From an uncultured Erysipelotrichaceae bacterium (lineage in GTDB: Bacteria > Bacillota_I > Bacilli_A > RFN20 > CAG-826), in NCBI GenBank assembly GCA_947166565.1, contig CAMVEL010000001.1:98823-162822 (forward strand): DNA of 64,000 nt, in the 5' to 3' direction. This document shows, one piece after another, positions 870 through 9,834 of the stretch. Below the pieces are notes generated by a model, which saw nothing but the letters and a program-made list of their open reading frames with translations, was not told where the DNA came from and ran no database searches. Position 1 is the first letter of the stretch; each line of letters begins with the position of its first letter. Both the position numbers and the translations under genes were made by a program.

Positions 870-1505
870 TTATTTACGGAGTTTGTAATTAGCTATAAGG
901 ATGAGGATTATCTGGATTGGGGCCCCGACGGAGAGGATGAACCAAATCTGTTCGGGCTTTTCGTTAACAAAGCCGAATTGCACGCAGAAAGATATCAACA
1001 ATGACCAAACGAAGAGGGAGAGCAAGACGATGACCGCGACGCGGTTATGGAAGAATCTCCAAACCTCAAAGGCCGCGAGGAAGGCTCCCGCCGGGACCAT
1101 CCAAAGGAAAACGATGAGGTTCTTGATCCAATGCTCGCTTCCTTGGAAGATGTAATCGGAAAAATAGATGGAGAAGGCGACGAGGACCACGAAGGTCATA
1201 CTCATCGATAATATCAAGGCCTTATTTGTTTCTTGCCTTTTCCTTTCCTTCTTTTCCTCTTCGTTAACGGTGACCTCGTTGATGGATTCTTCGTTTTGCT
1301 CGGTCAATAGGTAATCGACGGTGACCCCAAAGAAACGGGCGATATCGATGAGGATATCGACGCTTGGGGCGGCATATCCGAGTTCCCATTTGGAAATGGA
1401 TTTGTCACTATAATGGATTTCCTCGGCGAGTTCTTGCTGGGTGAGCCCCCTGGCTTTGCGCAGGGCGACGACGTTTTTCCCGATGATTGAGGCTAGGTTG
1501 TTCAT
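870..1505 (-). CDS. XRE-family HTH regulator with C-terminal transmembrane segments
   Basis: HTH IGKNVVALRKARGLTQQELAEEIHYSDKSISKWELGYAAPSVDILIDIARFFGVTVDYLL followed by about four hydrophobic segments. Start taken as MNNLAS; a TTG start at 1523 is possible. Confidence 0.85.
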   Translation of the reverse strand: MNNLASIIGKNVVALRKARGLTQQELAEEIHYSDKSISKWELGYAAPSVDILIDIARFFGVTVDYLLTEQNEESINEVTVNEEEKKERKRQETNKALILSMSMTFVVLVAFSIYFSDYIFQGSEHWIKNLIVFLWMVPAGAFLAAFEVWRFFHNRVAVIVLLSLFVWSLLISFCVQFGFVNEKPEQIWFILSVGAPIQIILILIANYKLRK

Positions 1506-1568: not shown

Positions 1569-4500
1569 TTAGGGTTTAACCGTATATCCAAGCGAGGTTC
1601 TACTCGCGAATTTGCTATCGAAAACAGAGGAAGGAATCGAGGATTGGGTGGTAACCGTGTATCTTTTCCAAAGGGTTCCGGAGCTCTTCGTGCCGGTGAA
1701 CATCGTTAGCTTATGGGAAGAGGAATTCCAGGCGTTCTCGTATTTGCCGGTCGAGGTGATGTTCTTTATCGATAGGGAAAGGGTCGCGCTAGCCGCGGAG
1801 ATGCCGATTATCTTCAAGGCCAATGACCCGCTCGCGCTATATAAGGACTCCTTAGAATAATTCTTCCCATTGGATGAATAGGTGACGGTCTTGCCATTGA
1901 TCGTGAGGTTAAGATTCTCAAACATCGATACATGGGTCAACGCTTTCATGGAAATGGAGAGATTCCAAACGGGGTTATCGAATGTCCCGGAGGTGGAGAA
2001 GGACTGGATGAGGTCCTCACCATGGATCGATTGTTTGGAAGAAGAATCCCCCGATAGGTTATCGGTGATGATCGAACCCATGTTGAGGATGTATTTCAAA
2101 AGCCAGTCGAGGAGGTTATCCGAGAAATCGGAGCCTTTGACCCTGACCTTATCGCTGTAGGCCTTGTCGCTCGTAATGGTGTTCTTTTGGATGCGGATCC
2201 TTTCCATATAGAGCTCACCGCTTGAATCGTCCCCGCTGGTCTCATAATAGATGTTCGTGTAGGTGTTCTCGGAAACGACATCGACGATACCGACAGGTTT
2301 GATTTCGGGAATGGTGACATTCGCGGCCAATTTGATATGGGCCCCATCCAAATAGATGAAGGCGTCGATTTCGATGTCGTAGGTCTTCGTAAGGATCTTC
2401 AAGGGGATGCTCGCGTTCAGATGGTAGGTCGTTAGATACGATTCGTCCGTTACCCCAAGGGTGATGGTTCCTAAAAGGAAACTAACGAGATGGGATAACG
2501 AAGAGAAGGAAGTGAAATCGTTAAGGGAATAAGACGAACCAATCCAGTTATAATCCGGTGGGTTGACGGAGAAATCGGTGGAATCGAAATCGATTCTGAT
2601 GTAGATTTCGTTCCCATCGGATTTCACCGAATTCGCATAAACCTCGATGGTCTCGAGCTTGCCAACGCGGTCAATCCCTTCCGAATCGACGTAATTTTCC
2701 CCGAATTTCAATCTGAGATTAAGGGGATAATCGTCATGGATAACGCCTTGCTTGATGACGAAAGTATCGGTACGGGTCGCGTTATTGATATTCGCGGAAA
2801 GGAGAAACCCACTCGCGAGGACTTCGAGATAACGCCCGTCGATCAAAGCCCCCAAAACGGTTCTTGAGGTCAAGGAAGAGAAGGAATTCGTCAATCTTTT
2901 GAAACGGGGATCGGTCGAAGAGAGTAAACTCGCGACCGTATCGAGGACGTCGTTAAGGGAATTGATGGAGAACCTTCCCTTAAGGGGATTACCTTCTGGC
3001 TCGGTCCTTTTTTCCGCGGATTTGGAACTATTGTTCTTGGAGTTATACTCAACAAGCATATAGCCTGTCTCACCCTCGTTTCCTTGGTAATCCTTCAAGG
3101 CCGAATCCGTTTCGTTTGAAGGGCCCGTGACATCGACTTTGAGGTTATGGTCTTGGAAGAAATGTTCCTTATGGTCGGTGATGGTCGCTTTCCCGGTCCC
3201 TATCTTTTCGGCTAAATCAAAGCCCAAGGAACCGGAGAAGGAGAAACCTTGCTTATCAAGGGTTTTGTTCCCGTTATAGGAAGGGATGGTATAGGAGGTG
3301 ACGGCCGTCTCGCCTTTTTTGGCGAAATAACCGGATAAGGAGATGGAGAGCTGATCGTTTTTCGCGATATCGTTGATGGTGTCTTCCAATCCAGGGAGAT
3401 GTTCCAATTCCGTATAACCGTTTTTATCGAAAGCCGTCTCCTCATAATCCATGACCTCGAGGGTGCCATCGAGGATTAGGCTGAGTTTTGGGGAACTTGA
3501 GGAAACGATACCCGCCGATTCAAAGGTTACCGATAGAAGGTCGAGGTTATTGGAGGAAAGGGTGACATAGGCCTTTCCCCTGCCGTTGGCCTTGCTTAGA
3601 TCAAGGGTCGCGTAAACGGCGTTATTCGCATGGCTTAAGGAGGTAATCATCGAGAGAAGGCCTTCATAATGGCCTTCGTTTATATCGGTGTAGACGACGC
3701 TTTCCTTAATCGCGTCGATCGCTTCGCTTAACGAGCCTAATGATACAAGGAAGCCGGAAAGCACCTTCATGATGGTATCGTTTTGGATGCTTTCATCGCT
3801 TAATGCATCGCCCGTTGAGGAAGCGAAACTCGATAACGTTTTGATGTTTGTCTTGGCCTTAAGGATGTTGTTGAGATTGATGTAGGCCTTTCCTTCGCCT
3901 TCTTCTTCCTCAATATGGAGAGCAAGGTATTCATCGTTCCCGTTCGAGGAGAAATCCACCTCACCCGTGACATCGTTATAGGAAGTGGAGAGATCGACGT
4001 TCGCGGATAAATCGAGGTGGCCGTCCTCTTCGATTTCGTCGCGGGCGAAATGGGTGTCGTCGCCGATGACCTCCTCTTCGATATGGGTGATATCCAAATT
4101 CGCGGAGATCCCGAATTTCTTATGGGATATCTTATTCCCTATTTCCTTTACGAGGGCCAAGGAATCCCCGAGTACCAGGTAATCGTCTTCTTCATAAGGC
4201 AAGGTGAAAGAAGGGGATTCGCTAGGGTTGATATCCGCGGAAAGGGATATCTCAAACCCATCGTTAAAGGAGAAGGAGGAGAGACTGTTCTCGTTATCAA
4301 GAGGGAAATCGACATGGTTAAGGATTCCCTTCTCGTTGCTTCCTAAACCAAACGATAGGGTATCCTCGCCTAAAGGGAGATCCAAACGGAAATAGTGGTC
4401 GGAAAGGGAAACCATGTGGTTGGTGGCAACTCTAAATTCCTCGAAATCGAAGGCGAGTTTTTCGCCATCCGCGCCTTTAAGGCTAATTTCCTTGATGTCG

Positions 4501-5021
4501 AATGATTCGAGGACGGAATAGACGAAATAATCAAGGCTGCCGTATTCGTAATAGACGATGCCCCTCGTCAATTCGTCTTCCTCACTTTCGTCATAGGCGG
4601 TGACGCTCGTCTTGAATTTGATCCCGCCATCGTTAGGCCAGGAAAGGGAGAAGAAGAGGTTCTCGTCCTTCAAGGTCAAATTGGCCTCGCGTTTTAAGCC
4701 GTTGTAATCGAGCGGCAAATCGATTGAGGCGTTGATGCCATGGATCGAGGGCTCATCGATTCTGAGGTTGATGGAACCGTTTTCGATCAAGACGTTATTG
4801 TCCTTCCCCTCGATTTTCCCAGGGATCTTCAATAACAATTGGTCGATATCTAGGCTTAGCCCGCCATTTACGGCATCGCGAAGCTGATGACCGATTTCAA
4901 AAGGCTCAATATCCTCGTTTTCTTCAGGAAGGGCCCCGACTTTATTCGGGGTGCATGAAAGCAAAAAGGACCCCATGAGGAGAGCGGATAAGAAGAATTT
5001 TGTCTTATTTCCTTTTTGCAT
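1569..5021 (-). CDS. Giant surface lipoprotein (1150 aa), paralog of the neighbouring 1255-aa protein
   Basis: Signal peptide with lipobox (MQKGNKTKFFLSALLMGSFLLSC); long beta-strand-like body; collinear similarity to 5079..8846 (e.g. GSNEKGILNHVDFPL vs GGNENAVLNHVDLPA; YINLNNILKAKT vs YLNVNDVLKAKT). Confidence 0.8.
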   Translation of the reverse strand: MQKGNKTKFFLSALLMGSFLLSCTPNKVGALPEENEDIEPFEIGHQLRDAVNGGLSLDIDQLLLKIPGKIEGKDNNVLIENGSINLRIDEPSIHGINASIDLPLDYNGLKREANLTLKDENLFFSLSWPNDGGIKFKTSVTAYDESEEDELTRGIVYYEYGSLDYFVYSVLESFDIKEISLKGADGEKLAFDFEEFRVATNHMVSLSDHYFRLDLPLGEDTLSFGLGSNEKGILNHVDFPLDNENSLSSFSFNDGFEISLSADINPSESPSFTLPYEEDDYLVLGDSLALVKEIGNKISHKKFGISANLDITHIEEEVIGDDTHFARDEIEEDGHLDLSANVDLSTSYNDVTGEVDFSSNGNDEYLALHIEEEEGEGKAYINLNNILKAKTNIKTLSSFASSTGDALSDESIQNDTIMKVLSGFLVSLGSLSEAIDAIKESVVYTDINEGHYEGLLSMITSLSHANNAVYATLDLSKANGRGKAYVTLSSNNLDLLSVTFESAGIVSSSSPKLSLILDGTLEVMDYEETAFDKNGYTELEHLPGLEDTINDIAKNDQLSISLSGYFAKKGETAVTSYTIPSYNGNKTLDKQGFSFSGSLGFDLAEKIGTGKATITDHKEHFFQDHNLKVDVTGPSNETDSALKDYQGNEGETGYMLVEYNSKNNSSKSAEKRTEPEGNPLKGRFSINSLNDVLDTVASLLSSTDPRFKRLTNSFSSLTSRTVLGALIDGRYLEVLASGFLLSANINNATRTDTFVIKQGVIHDDYPLNLRLKFGENYVDSEGIDRVGKLETIEVYANSVKSDGNEIYIRIDFDSTDFSVNPPDYNWIGSSYSLNDFTSFSSLSHLVSFLLGTITLGVTDESYLTTYHLNASIPLKILTKTYDIEIDAFIYLDGAHIKLAANVTIPEIKPVGIVDVVSENTYTNIYYETSGDDSSGELYMERIRIQKNTITSDKAYSDKVRVKGSDFSDNLLDWLLKYILNMGSIITDNLSGDSSSKQSIHGEDLIQSFSTSGTFDNPVWNLSISMKALTHVSMFENLNLTINGKTVTYSSNGKNYSKESLYSASGSLALKIIGISAASATLSLSIKNITSTGKYENAWNSSSHKLTMFTGTKSSGTLWKRYTVTTQSSIPSSVFDSKFASRTSLGYTVKP

Positions 5022-5031
5022 AAATGGATTC

Positions 5032-5066
5032 GCCCCTCCCCTAGGAACTAAACAAAGGGGAGGGGC
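5032..5066. promoter_or_regulatory. GC-rich intercistronic hairpin (11-bp perfect stem GCCCCTCCCCT/AGGGGAGGGGC)
   Basis: Inverted repeat between the two giant paralogous genes; no T-tract on the transcribed (-) strand. Confidence 0.7.
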
Positions 5067-5078
5067 ATGTATTAGTTT

Positions 5079-8000
5079 TTAGGCAATCCCGAGGTAGAGG
5101 TTACGTCCAGCTGGGATTTCGTCTAGGCCGATGTAGTTATAGCCATAGAGCGAGTAGTAGGGGTTGTTCTTGTCATCGCTTTGGAAGCCGTTGACGAGGT
5201 CATAGAGATCGCCTTTGGCTTCTGCGTCGATGATGCCGTTATCGTTAACGTCTTTGACGAAGAGGCTTGCGTATTCGCTTCCGAGTCCATTGACTTCGGA
5301 AATGAGGCCATCCGCGTCGAAATTGGTGAGGCCGATGGTGACGTCAGCTTCCGCGAAACGGAGCTTGCTGCCATCGTTTTCGGCGGTAGCGTCAGCGTAG
5401 ACGTTGGCTTCGAGTCCGGTAAGGCAACGGGCATCGAATCCGGAAGCGCTATGGAGATCGGTGGAGGTGAAGGTCAAATCGGCATTGCCGATGACGCCAA
5501 TGCCAAGGAGAGCGCCCAAATCAAGGGAAATGGTGTAGCTCCTGCCGCTCGTAAGGTCTTTGGTGAAGAAACCGTTGAAGCAATCGGCGACGTGGATGCC
5601 CTTTTCGTCGAAGAGGCCTTTCTTTGGTTCGGCTTCTTCTTCGTTGTTGGCTTGTGGTTCCTCCGGTTCCTCGTTTTCATTCTTGGCGAAGAGGGATTCA
5701 TCAACGCCTAAGGTGTAGCCAAGGACCCAGTTAAGCAAGTCGGCATTATAGTCTTTGCCATCGATTCTGACCGCGTCCTTGACGTCTTTGATTCTTCCGT
5801 AGGAGGAATCGCGGGTGAGGAGTAGTTCGCCATCTGGATCGACTCCGTTAGCGTAGTAGTAGATTTTGGAATCGCGTTTGCCCTCTAGTTCGTTCGGACG
5901 GAAATAATGGGCATCGTCAGGAGCGTTAAGTCCCCTGATGACTGGGAGGTTGGAGAAATCGGCCATGAGTTTGGTCTCGGCCCCTTCAACGGAGGCGTCG
6001 AGGGTGAAGTCATAGACGTTAAGTCCATATCCCGCGACCATGAGATCGATGGAGCCTTCAAGCCCATAATAGGAGACGCCCGCGAGGTTGCCATCGTTAT
6101 TCTCGACCACGCCCATCGTAAGGGTGTTGAGAAGCTCATTGCCCATCGAGGCAAGGGGGGTGAAGTCGGTGAATCCTTCGAAGGAAGAGAAGGCTTCCGC
6201 GGAGGCTTCGCCTAAGGTATCGATGTCGGAGATCGTCAAATCGAATTTGTTGACGTTATCCTTCTTGACGAGGACCTTAAGGTCGGAAAGACCCTTTTCG
6301 GCCCCATTGCCTTCTTCGTCTCCGCCATAGGTTTGTTCGGAATCGTAGGAGAGGACGAGGTCGATCTTGATGCCATCAAGGCCAAGGGCGTCGCCACTGA
6401 TGGTGACTTTGGTCTGTTCGCCAAGGCTGACGTCTTCGAGGATTCCGCGATATGTGAGTAAGTCGAAGTAGCGGCCATCGAGGATATCGCTGAGCAAGGA
6501 GCTGCTCGCTTCGCCCATGATGGAGGCCCCAAGGCGGGAGAACCTATCGTCACCCCTGACGAAATCAAGGAGGAAATCAAGGCTGAAGCCATTGTCTTCA
6601 CTGAAAACTTCCTTAGCGGCGTTGAGGTCGATTAAACCCTCGATGCCCTTTTCGGATTTTTGGGAGACGGTCGCTTTGCCAGATTTGGATAAGGAATCGT
6701 AGGAGAAGCCGATCTTCTTCATATCATCCTGCAAGCCGAGCTTGATGTTATGGTCTTGGACATAGGTGTCCGCGAAATGGGTGAGGCTGAGATCGACCTT
6801 TCCTTCTTTGGTAGTGACTTCTCCTTCGCCTTCTTTGGCGAAATCGAAGGCGAGTCCGCCACCGATTTCAAGAGCGTGGTCAACGCCATTTTCCTTGTAG
6901 AGGTTGCCGTTAAGGGAAGCCTTGAATGACTTATCGTCCGCGATGGCTTTGATTTGACCACCCAAACCCTTGAGGTGGGAAAGGGATTCGTATTCTTTGT
7001 CGGAACCGTATTCGGGTTCTTTCGGGGTTTCGAATTCGCTGGTCTTGATCTCACCGTTAAGGGAGATGGAAGCGAGCTCGATATCCTTTAAGGTGATGCT
7101 AAGCAACGAGGAGTCGTTCCTTCCGGAAACCTTGAGGATAACGCTTCCGGATAGTCCCAAAGGAGACAAACCAAGTTCAATGGTGATGAGGTTATCCTCG
7201 CCCTTGATGAGGGAGATGAGGTCAAGGACGGAGACGAAGGTTCCGTCTTCGATTCCTTTGAGCAAAGAGGAATTCATGATCCTATCGATTTCATCGCCGA
7301 GGGTTCCAAGGAGTTTGGTGATGGAGGAAAGATCCATCTTCTCTTCGGAGGAACCACTGAAAGCGTCCTTCAAGACGTTGGTGTAGAACTCATCGAGATA
7401 GGTCTTGCTGGTTTTGGCTTTGAGGACGTCGTTGACGTTGAGGTATCCCTGGTAGCCGTTTTCCTCTTCAAGATATGCGACTCCGATGCGGTGTCCTTTG
7501 AATTCTTCGCCTTCCTCACGTTTCTTATCGATGGTGATGTTGGCGTCGATTCCCTCGAGGGCGCGTTTCTTGTTGCCTTCCTCATCGACTTTGAAAGCAT
7601 CGATGTTGGCGTCAAGGTGAAGGAGTGCCGCCTCATCGACGGAAGATTTCTTCATGACGGTGCGGGAGCCTTCCTTGGCTTCCTTGCGGTGACCGATTTC
7701 CAAATCGGCGGTTAAACCGATTTCTGGTTTGGCGATGACTTTGGCGATATTGCGGAACAAAGCGGCCGAATCGGCGAGATCGCGGTATTCTTCCGGATCG
7801 CCATAGATGGTGCTAGCCCAGTCGATGTCCTCTCCATTGTTGACGAGTTTTCCGCCGATATCCGCGGAAAGGGAGAGGTCCATGCCGTCTTGGATATGCC
7901 AAACGGGATTCTCAAGGGGATGTCCGTTCTCGTCGAACTTAGCTGGTAAATCGACATGGTTAAGGACGGCGTTTTCGTTACCGCCAAGACCGAGTTTGAT

Positions 8001-8846
8001 GGATTTGTCGCCAAGCTTAAGGTTCCAAATGAAGTAAGCTGTGTTATCCTCGCCACCGATATTGACCATCTCGTTAAGGGAAGTGAGAATCTCGTCGGTA
8101 TCGATGGAAGAAGAGGTTTCTTTTTCCTCCTCTTCCTCGACGGAGACGCTTCCGGTTAACTTATCTAGCCATCCCTCGAAGGAGACGGAGATGCCTCCAT
8201 CGGAAAGGATCTCGAGGATATCGGCGATAAGCCAGTCCAATTTACCGTATTCGTATTGATAGGTACCGCGGGTCGTGGGGTCTTCGCTGTTCCCGTCGAT
8301 CTCGGTTTCATAAGCGGCGGTCGAGATCTTGTATTTGAAGTCCCAGCTTCCGCCTTCGCTTCTTTCCCCGCCAACGCTATCCGCGTTACCCCTATCGGCA
8401 AGGTTGAGGTAGAGATTGTCGTTAACTAATGAAGCGTGGATATCGCGATACTTGGCATCGGTCCCGTTATTGGAATAGATGACGGGAGCGGTGAGGGCGA
8501 AGTTGACGCCGTGGAGGTTAAGCTCTTCGAGAGCGAAATCAAGGGTCGCCGGGTTTTCTGGATCGACCGTGATTGTGTTATGACCCTCTTTGGCGCTTTC
8601 ACCGGTGTAATAATGGTCGAATTTGAGGTCGTTGATCTCGACATGGAGACCCGCGGTCGCCCCTTCTGCGAGGTTGTTAACGAATCTCTCGCGGAAGGTA
8701 AGGGTTGGTTGGGACGGGGTCGAATGGTCGCGAAGGTCGATGACCGTGACGTTTTGGGGGATGACGAAGAAGGCCGTGGCCGCGGAGGCGGCGAAGACTA
8801 GGCCAAAGGCCCCAATCGTCGTAGCTGTCTTAAGTTTCTTATTCAT
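5079..8846 (-). CDS. Giant secreted/membrane-anchored surface protein (1255 aa), paralog of 1569..5021
   Basis: N-terminal hydrophobic segment (TTIGAFGLVFAASAATAFFVI), long extracytoplasmic region, EF-hand-like DVNDNGIID near the C-terminus. Confidence 0.8.
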   Translation of the reverse strand: MNKKLKTATTIGAFGLVFAASAATAFFVIPQNVTVIDLRDHSTPSQPTLTFRERFVNNLAEGATAGLHVEINDLKFDHYYTGESAKEGHNTITVDPENPATLDFALEELNLHGVNFALTAPVIYSNNGTDAKYRDIHASLVNDNLYLNLADRGNADSVGGERSEGGSWDFKYKISTAAYETEIDGNSEDPTTRGTYQYEYGKLDWLIADILEILSDGGISVSFEGWLDKLTGSVSVEEEEEKETSSSIDTDEILTSLNEMVNIGGEDNTAYFIWNLKLGDKSIKLGLGGNENAVLNHVDLPAKFDENGHPLENPVWHIQDGMDLSLSADIGGKLVNNGEDIDWASTIYGDPEEYRDLADSAALFRNIAKVIAKPEIGLTADLEIGHRKEAKEGSRTVMKKSSVDEAALLHLDANIDAFKVDEEGNKKRALEGIDANITIDKKREEGEEFKGHRIGVAYLEEENGYQGYLNVNDVLKAKTSKTYLDEFYTNVLKDAFSGSSEEKMDLSSITKLLGTLGDEIDRIMNSSLLKGIEDGTFVSVLDLISLIKGEDNLITIELGLSPLGLSGSVILKVSGRNDSSLLSITLKDIELASISLNGEIKTSEFETPKEPEYGSDKEYESLSHLKGLGGQIKAIADDKSFKASLNGNLYKENGVDHALEIGGGLAFDFAKEGEGEVTTKEGKVDLSLTHFADTYVQDHNIKLGLQDDMKKIGFSYDSLSKSGKATVSQKSEKGIEGLIDLNAAKEVFSEDNGFSLDFLLDFVRGDDRFSRLGASIMGEASSSLLSDILDGRYFDLLTYRGILEDVSLGEQTKVTISGDALGLDGIKIDLVLSYDSEQTYGGDEEGNGAEKGLSDLKVLVKKDNVNKFDLTISDIDTLGEASAEAFSSFEGFTDFTPLASMGNELLNTLTMGVVENNDGNLAGVSYYGLEGSIDLMVAGYGLNVYDFTLDASVEGAETKLMADFSNLPVIRGLNAPDDAHYFRPNELEGKRDSKIYYYANGVDPDGELLLTRDSSYGRIKDVKDAVRIDGKDYNADLLNWVLGYTLGVDESLFAKNENEEPEEPQANNEEEAEPKKGLFDEKGIHVADCFNGFFTKDLTSGRSYTISLDLGALLGIGVIGNADLTFTSTDLHSASGFDARCLTGLEANVYADATAENDGSKLRFAEADVTIGLTNFDADGLISEVNGLGSEYASLFVKDVNDNGIIDAEAKGDLYDLVNGFQSDDKNNPYYSLYGYNYIGLDEIPAGRNLYLGIA

Positions 8847-8868
8847 GGTTTTAACTCCTTAAGTCCTT

Positions 8869-9834
8869 TTATAGGGTTTCCGGATAGGCCGGGAGGGTCG
8901 AATCCGGAGAGGGGAACCCGTAATCTGGCGTTCCCAAGTGGTATTCGGTTACGAGGCTTTGGGTGGCCGGGCTTCCGAATCCCGCTCCTGTTGTGGCTGT
9001 ATATCTTTCGTGGGTCACGAATCGCTTCGGCAGCAATTCGTCATCCAGATAGAACGTTAGGTGACAATATTCGAATGGTGGTGGATATTTGAGACTCGAT
9101 ATCGTTTGCATCTGCTTTTGGTAATTGAGGACCCCTTTCCTTGGGTCTAACTCGATTTCCACCTTGTACCCCCCGCCTTCGTTTTTGGTGAAGGAGGTCG
9201 GCCCTTCCCCTGAAAGCGGGTCGCCTTCAAGAAGAGTTCCTGGGGCCACGATGTAGACGAGTCCATTGGAGACGTTTCTTCCCATCATCTCTTTGTATTC
9301 GGCGTTGGAATACGTTTTCTTTTCGTGAGATGCATAATTTGGGTTATCTCCCCAATAGGTGTCGGTTGTCTCGCCTTCTTGGAACATCCTATCGTAGAGG
9401 TTCACTAGCCCAAGGGAGTTGCTTTCCTCGAAGAAGCGGTCGCCCTCTTTGATGGTTCGCGATTCTATGCGTATCTTGACGTGTCCTAGGTCAGCAACCG
9501 ATCCGCCGATCCCTACCGTATAGGTGTTTTCCTGTTGCTCGAACAAGTAGTAAGCGGCATTGACTGCTTCGTCTGGCTTGAGGGAGAGGTAGTTCCCGCT
9601 GGCTTTCGCTTTGTTATAGGAAGCGATCACAGACTTCATATCGACTGTTACCTCATCGACAAGGTATTGGGTTTGGTCAGGCCTAACTACTTTGGCGAGG
9701 ACGATCCCGGTTATGACCCCGGCGAGGACAACGCCAAAACCGACGCCGCCGTAGATGCCGATTCTGCGGAGACGTTTGTTTGAATTGTTTTTCTCACTCA
9801 CTTCGTTTTTCATACTAGGTCCTTGACCGGCCAT
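8869..9834 (-). CDS. Membrane-anchored extracytoplasmic protein of unknown function (321 aa)
   Basis: N-terminal TM (IGIYGGVGFGVVLAGVITGIVLAKVV) then a soluble domain; 22 bp upstream of the giant-protein gene on the same strand. Confidence 0.7.
   Translation of the reverse strand: MAGQGPSMKNEVSEKNNSNKRLRRIGIYGGVGFGVVLAGVITGIVLAKVVRPDQTQYLVDEVTVDMKSVIASYNKAKASGNYLSLKPDEAVNAAYYLFEQQENTYTVGIGGSVADLGHVKIRIESRTIKEGDRFFEESNSLGLVNLYDRMFQEGETTDTYWGDNPNYASHEKKTYSNAEYKEMMGRNVSNGLVYIVAPGTLLEGDPLSGEGPTSFTKNEGGGYKVEIELDPRKGVLNYQKQMQTISSLKYPPPFEYCHLTFYLDDELLPKRFVTHERYTATTGAGFGSPATQSLVTEYHLGTPDYGFPSPDSTLPAYPETL

Follow-up and report, generated by a model that had tools for sequence, protein, structure and literature searches.

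An uncultured gut bacterium of the Erysipelotrichaceae, order RFN20, carries, within a 64,000-nucleotide stretch of contig CAMVEL010000001.1 (positions 98,823 to 162,822 of the forward strand; hereafter the window), an operon that encodes a small membrane-anchored protein and two giant paralogous surface proteins (g1 and g2), accompanied by the gene of a membrane-embedded regulator (Table 1). Structure models, comparison with relatives and analogy suggest that these proteins form a surface assembly that would bind lipids from the environment and hand them to the membrane of fatty-acid-auxotrophic cells, with feedback by the membrane regulator, a reading to which we assign a probability of roughly 0.45. 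Lipid binding is proposed because the small protein matches the LolA/LppX fold group, the units of the giants have the same layout, small and giant proteins are fused in other families, a regulator and operator are linked to the genes, and the hosts are poor in FabF. Published work associates the LolA/LppX/RseB fold group with lipids and with their binding (PMC7400510, PMC8496864).

The three tightly spaced open reading frames (ORFs) lie on the (-) strand exactly where a preliminary description of the window had placed them, separated by 22 bp (small gene to g1) and 57 bp (g1 to g2). They are not chance ORFs, because 26 of 31 congeneric genomes have homologs and the small protein is found in 36 of 61 genomes, representing nine genera. 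The giants are collinear paralogs, as had been proposed, with 31% identity over ~970 aa (E = 1.2e-41). The small protein and g1 each possess a single N-terminal transmembrane (TM) helix, whereas g2 has the lipobox FLLSC, of which Cys23 is the cysteine; this contrast in anchoring applies to the window and is not universal, as the second giant of the Ca. Alloenteromonas clade lacks the cysteine. The unit had been drawn at 1569-9834, which encloses the three genes and overlooks both the regulator gene, encoding a helix-turn-helix (HTH) domain and about four TM helices, and an operator-like inverted repeat.

Table 1. Features of the operon, in coordinates of the window
Feature	Position	Strand	Basis
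Membrane-embedded regulator, 211 aa: XRE/HTH_3 domain and C-terminal multi-TM domain (~4 helices)	870-1505	(-)	HTH_3 match, family alignment
Giant 2 (g2), 1150-aa lipoprotein, paralog of g1, units U1-U4	1569-5021	(-)	ORF, lipobox, AlphaFold2 (AF2)
Giant 1 (g1), 1255 aa, N-terminal TM anchor, units U1-U4	5079-8846	(-)	ORF, unit hidden Markov models (HMMs)
Small protein of 321 aa with a TM anchor and domain S as ectodomain	8869-9834	(-)	ORF, AF2, Foldseek
Operator-like inverted repeat TTCTACGATTTGGAGAA	9897-9913	(-)	Only YTCTM-N7-KAGAR match in the window

The AF2 model of the small protein (mean predicted local distance difference test score, pLDDT, 88.8; most ectodomain blocks >90) contains helices at residues 66-79 and 87-99, six strands within residues 103-176, further helices, and strands within residues 214-300. 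This is the layout of the LolA/LppX group: an 11-strand half-barrel with an N-terminal helix and a helical insertion after strand 6. The best Foldseek match in the PDB is LolA (2w7q, E = 2.6e-6), followed by others including 3mh8, 2byo and RseB, and nearly all matches with E <1e-3 are LolA, LolB, LprG, RseB or LppX. By sequence, the small protein has no match in Pfam, NCBIfam or the PDB, and Pfam is also blank across all members of the small family. On the strength of the model, a LolA-type half-barrel is very probable.

Each giant is predicted to consist of four tandem units of ~270 aa: in g1, U1 (aa 54-356), U2 (357-624), U3 (625-896) and U4 (898-1219), matched by unit HMMs at E = 5e-75, 2e-78, 2e-57 and 2e-80, respectively; and in g2, U1 (aa 43-281), U2 (284-541), U3 (542-841) and U4 (842-1115). 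When the complete giant alignment was compared with itself in HHalign, there was no match; profiles of slices of it revealed tandem repeats, offset by ~257 and ~293 residues, with E-values down to 7e-10, and the profiles of U2 and U3 match each other at E = 1.4e-11. By HMM, the full-length giants with four units that were checked carry them in the order U1-U2-U3-U4; one further giant (locus L102) has about five units. In the AlphaFold model of g2 (46 sequences; mean pLDDT 80.5; predicted template-modelling score, pTM, 0.65), U2, U3 and U4 each run from a helix through six strands and inserted helices to five more strands, as in the 11-strand layout of LolA; U1 is less regular, its first half containing additional short strands. 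Whole-chain Foldseek gave local matches to LolA (8v1k) and LprG (3mh8) with probability 0.98, template-modelling (TM)-scores of 0.34-0.36 and E = 0.003-0.01; its top rows of LptD, usher and porin structures, with root-mean-square deviation (rmsd) >25 Å, are spurious. Neither Pfam nor NCBIfam matches the giants, and PDB sequence-profile matches to beta-amylase and Shiga toxin B are weak (E from 0.05 up) and at chance level. As modelled, the giants are likely to be tandem chains of LolA-type domains. The earlier hint of a LolA-like fold is supported by the Foldseek result for the small protein and by the strand topology repeated in the giant units. The beta-taco of AsmA/TamB, suggested alongside it, finds no match: although AsmA/TamB/VPS13 bridge-like proteins are likewise long, beta-rich and membrane-attached, and repeat number varies in the fused relatives of the operon proteins, the latter are built of discrete 6+5-strand domains with inserted helices, not of a single continuous groove, match no AsmA/TamB/VPS13 family in Pfam, and have no VPS13 or AsmA structure among the Foldseek matches listed.

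Among 31 genomes of the genus, 27 possess the small gene together with at least one giant; three (G012, G023 and G027) possess neither, and in another (G030) the giants are present and the small gene would lie past the contig end. Two genomes have one divergent giant each (G006 and G022), that of G006 reaching the contig edge. Most other genera of the family have the small gene with one giant, the typical module being the regulator, the small protein and a single giant of ~950-1220 aa. Strict co-occurrence of the three genes, as first envisaged, therefore applies inside the genus; beyond it, the conserved core is the regulator, the small protein and one giant. In a tree of 46 giants, the 17 g1 sequences form one clade (support 99) that groups with g2 and not with the single giants, which indicates a duplication of the giant near the base of the genus. 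At E 1e-3, a profile of the small domain matches 77 of 395 Bacilli genomes, and the match is strong in 70 of these. The module is conserved and belongs to no Pfam, NCBIfam or PDB family, in keeping with the initial view of an undescribed envelope system. Near some of these loci lie other large ORFs: ~1000-aa ORFs that start like an ABC ATPase (MLELxNIKKDY...) occur 3-4 kb downstream of the giant in L143, L146, L147 and L149, recurring within one rumen genome group, and one Ca. Alloenteromonas genome has, ~5 kb away from its operon, a 1271-aa Cas9-like ORF (L125:1324-5139, beginning MPKTLGLDLGIASIGW).

In family f27, single proteins of ~2100-2850 aa begin with the small domain and have U4-like units at or near the C-terminus (E down to 6.6e-34); related proteins of 1700-1800 aa in other families have the same order, small domain first and U4 last. 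The fusions support a single putative assembly that begins with S and ends with U4, and with it the heteromeric assembly of S and giants proposed earlier. Several variants stand apart. Three fused giants of one family (L186:4333-10875, L182:4221-11597 and L187:7104-13403) have ~500 extra residues after U4, with weak LRR_5 and Flg_new matches in that of L186. The module extends beyond Bacilli: a Clostridia contig (L150) encodes a 546-aa protein (849-2489) composed of a ~260-aa N-terminal region, a TM segment and the small domain, and 3' of it a 2385-aa giant ending in U4 (2590-9747); the module may carry a cytoplasmic signalling domain in this case. The small domain also occurs in proteins of 498-756 aa (L197:6108-7676, L200:2660-4156, L199:6768-9038) that have one more domain on one side of it or the other and no giant gene adjacent to their own; these probably represent other uses of the domain.

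The regulator matches HTH_3 at E = 2.8e-17 (its start, the ATG at 1505, was picked by comparison with homologs), and its family alignment has conserved Trp and Pro within the TM region. Most loci of the family have an XRE-type HTH gene with multiple TM helices beside the small and giant genes. In other genera it usually lies immediately upstream of them and is transcribed divergently; in the genus of the window it has the same direction and lies downstream of the giants or between them. The inverted repeat YTCTM-N7-KAGAR (e.g. ATTCTCCAAAATGGAGAAT) was spotted by eye in a first set of 34 non-redundant regulator-bearing loci; 28 have it 5' of the small gene, against 0.33 expected from dinucleotide shuffles; its density over whole loci, upstream sites included, is ~1 per 12.6 kb. 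Because the pattern had been found by eye in these loci, it was retested on 15 other loci of the genus, one of which (G003) had previously been seen as L140, and it was present in 13, against 0.09 expected. The single match in the 64 kb of the window is 63-79 bp upstream of the start codon of the small gene. A wide scan with a 20-row alignment gave no usable pattern. The regulator presumably binds this operator. Next to the gene of the HTH regulator, 3' on the same strand after a gap of 46 bp, is a TetR-family regulator gene (371-823) that is not kept at the relatives' loci listed; conserved neighbouring genes for CarD-like, MFS transporter, dITPase, patatin-like and PepF proteins were considered as parts of the system and judged to reflect genus synteny.

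Co-inheritance of a membrane-embedded regulator with the operon, and conservation of the operator, would also suit an envelope-stress or lipid-sensing relay, in which S would sense mislocalised lipids or lipoproteins in the manner of RseB/MucB and signal to the HTH regulator, the giants serving as effectors or ligand collectors. RseB is indeed among the best structural matches of the small protein, and MucB senses lipid signals (PMC7400510). Such a relay is nevertheless unlikely: the family with fused small-giant proteins has no such regulator nearby; no anti-sigma or sigma factor is linked, and the anti-sigma partner and regulated proteolysis of RseB/MucB systems have no counterpart here, the partner being an XRE HTH protein with a TM domain; and the eight giant domains that make up the bulk of the operon are far more than a sensor needs.

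The genome of the window, which is 92% complete, yielded no penicillin-binding protein (PBP) transpeptidase, Omp85, sortase or FtsW/RodA, and the host therefore looks wall-less and monoderm, in agreement with the prediction that some families of the order RFN20 are peptidoglycan-deficient and with the absence of sortases there (PMC10868615). FabF was not found in this genome either. Among 45 sampled genomes of the family, a strong FabF match is present in one, which lacks the small gene, and a match to the DegV/FakB-type fatty-acid-binding family is present in all 45. Across the 395 Bacilli genomes, typical FabF occurs in 2 of the 70 strong carriers of the small domain versus 115 of 325 non-carriers (Fisher p = 1.6e-9). 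These bacteria seem unable to make lipids from scratch. In four genomes of family f27 (G139, G267, G367 and G431), which have the small domain, ~800-aa ORFs contain two ketosynthase-like matches each; these are atypical and perhaps not FabF. The small domain is not significantly associated with absence of PBP across the class once stratified by family (p = 0.54).

The same envelope bears on trafficking of lipoproteins or glycolipids, in which the chain would move the cell's own lipidated molecules off the membrane or keep them at the surface. LolA and LolB, the closest solved folds, carry lipoproteins, and g2 is itself a lipoprotein, but a cell without an outer membrane (no Omp85) and apparently without a wall offers no second destination, and a LolCDE-like transporter was not seen in the operon; we consider this role improbable. 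Comparably poor odds attach to an adhesin, one of the functions first proposed, or a structural coat, in which the repeats would serve as spacers, either to present a binding face or to stabilise a cell that has no wall. In favour, these surface proteins are long and repetitive and evolve fast, and P116 of Mycoplasma pneumoniae was originally described as a protein of adhesion (PMC10023570); on the other side, models and searches gave no known adhesin fold, adhesin repeat or Pfam adhesin domain, the units have lipid-carrier topology, U4 is kept as the last or near-last unit, unlike in simple spacer arrays, and the sortase and wall anchoring of sortase-anchored adhesins are missing, with no LPXTG-type anchor seen and neither sortase nor PBP in the genome. 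A wall-spanning conduit was dropped, as the genome has no PBP or FtsW/RodA.

Under the preferred reading, uptake of environmental lipids, nine LolA/LppX-type domains would act in one membrane-tethered assembly: the single domain of the small protein as the membrane-proximal first domain, and the four of each giant as chains of further domains. The giant domains would bind hydrophobic molecules outside the cell, perhaps fatty acids, phospholipids or glycolipids, and the bound lipids would be delivered to the membrane of a bacterium that lacks de novo fatty acid synthesis, uptake being the presumed direction; the membrane-embedded HTH regulator would set expression through the conserved palindrome upstream of the small gene. 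A more specific formulation, for now tentative and rather doubtful, is a modular lipid-acquisition machine with a LolA-like entry domain and 4 to ~9 units, split or fused, whose XRE regulator reads the lipid status of the membrane via the operator.

Several observations weigh against lipid uptake. LolA-type folds may have non-lipid roles, as in GerS, which activates an amidase (PMC8496864). The structural similarity of the small protein is modest, with TM-scores of 0.31 (normalised by query) and 0.48 (by target) and rmsd ~8 Å, so we assign it to the fold group at the superfamily level and do not propose close kinship; whole-giant Foldseek produced mostly meaningless global alignments; and profile comparison of S with the giant units was not significant, giving no sequence link, for which reason common ancestry of S and the units is not claimed. 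The FabF association reflects mostly shared ancestry: stratified by family, p rises to 0.018, and to 0.08 if the four genomes with atypical ketosynthases are counted as FabF-positive. Two FabF-positive genomes of another family have the small domain, and some relatives without type II fatty acid synthesis (FASII) lack the system.

With LolA, LolB, LppX, LprG and RseB (MucB), the small protein shares the N-terminal helix, six strands, helical insertion and five strands; the system differs from that group in having no detected sequence similarity to it, membrane anchors, tandem chains of at least four units, an apparently wall-less monoderm host and a dedicated membrane HTH regulator. GerS of Clostridioides difficile is a LolA-like lipoprotein, an N-terminal helix with an 11-strand half-barrel, in a monoderm Firmicute (PMC8496864); it is a single domain, specific to sporulation, that activates the amidase CwlD, and has no tandem giants. 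P116 (MPN_213) acts at the cell surface, where it extracts lipids on which its wall-less host depends (PMC10023570). It resembles this system in its large membrane-anchored ectodomain, its possible origin by domain duplication (PMC10023570) and a wall-less host that needs external lipids. The resemblance is one of functional analogy only: the fold of P116 was published as a new one, P116 is a single protein for which a regulator partner is not described, and it is neither matched by the operon proteins in PDB profile searches nor among the Foldseek matches listed.

The LolA-type fold itself is already known; what was not found in the families searched or in the literature searched, of which coverage was partial, is its arrangement in long membrane-tethered chains, in split and fused forms, the operator and membrane HTH regulator linked to them, and the distribution of the system among wall-less Bacilli. 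The operon probably encodes a lipid-binding or lipid-uptake machine that has not been described before. Its hosts are mostly FASII-less and often wall-less Bacilli. Single-membrane bacteria in which a LolA-type fold is multiplied into chains and joined with a transcription regulator of the membrane fall outside the usual picture of an outer-membrane lipoprotein carrier, and, as the lipid supply of wall-less or lipid-auxotrophic bacteria outside Mycoplasma is poorly known, the system offers a concrete and widespread candidate for it.

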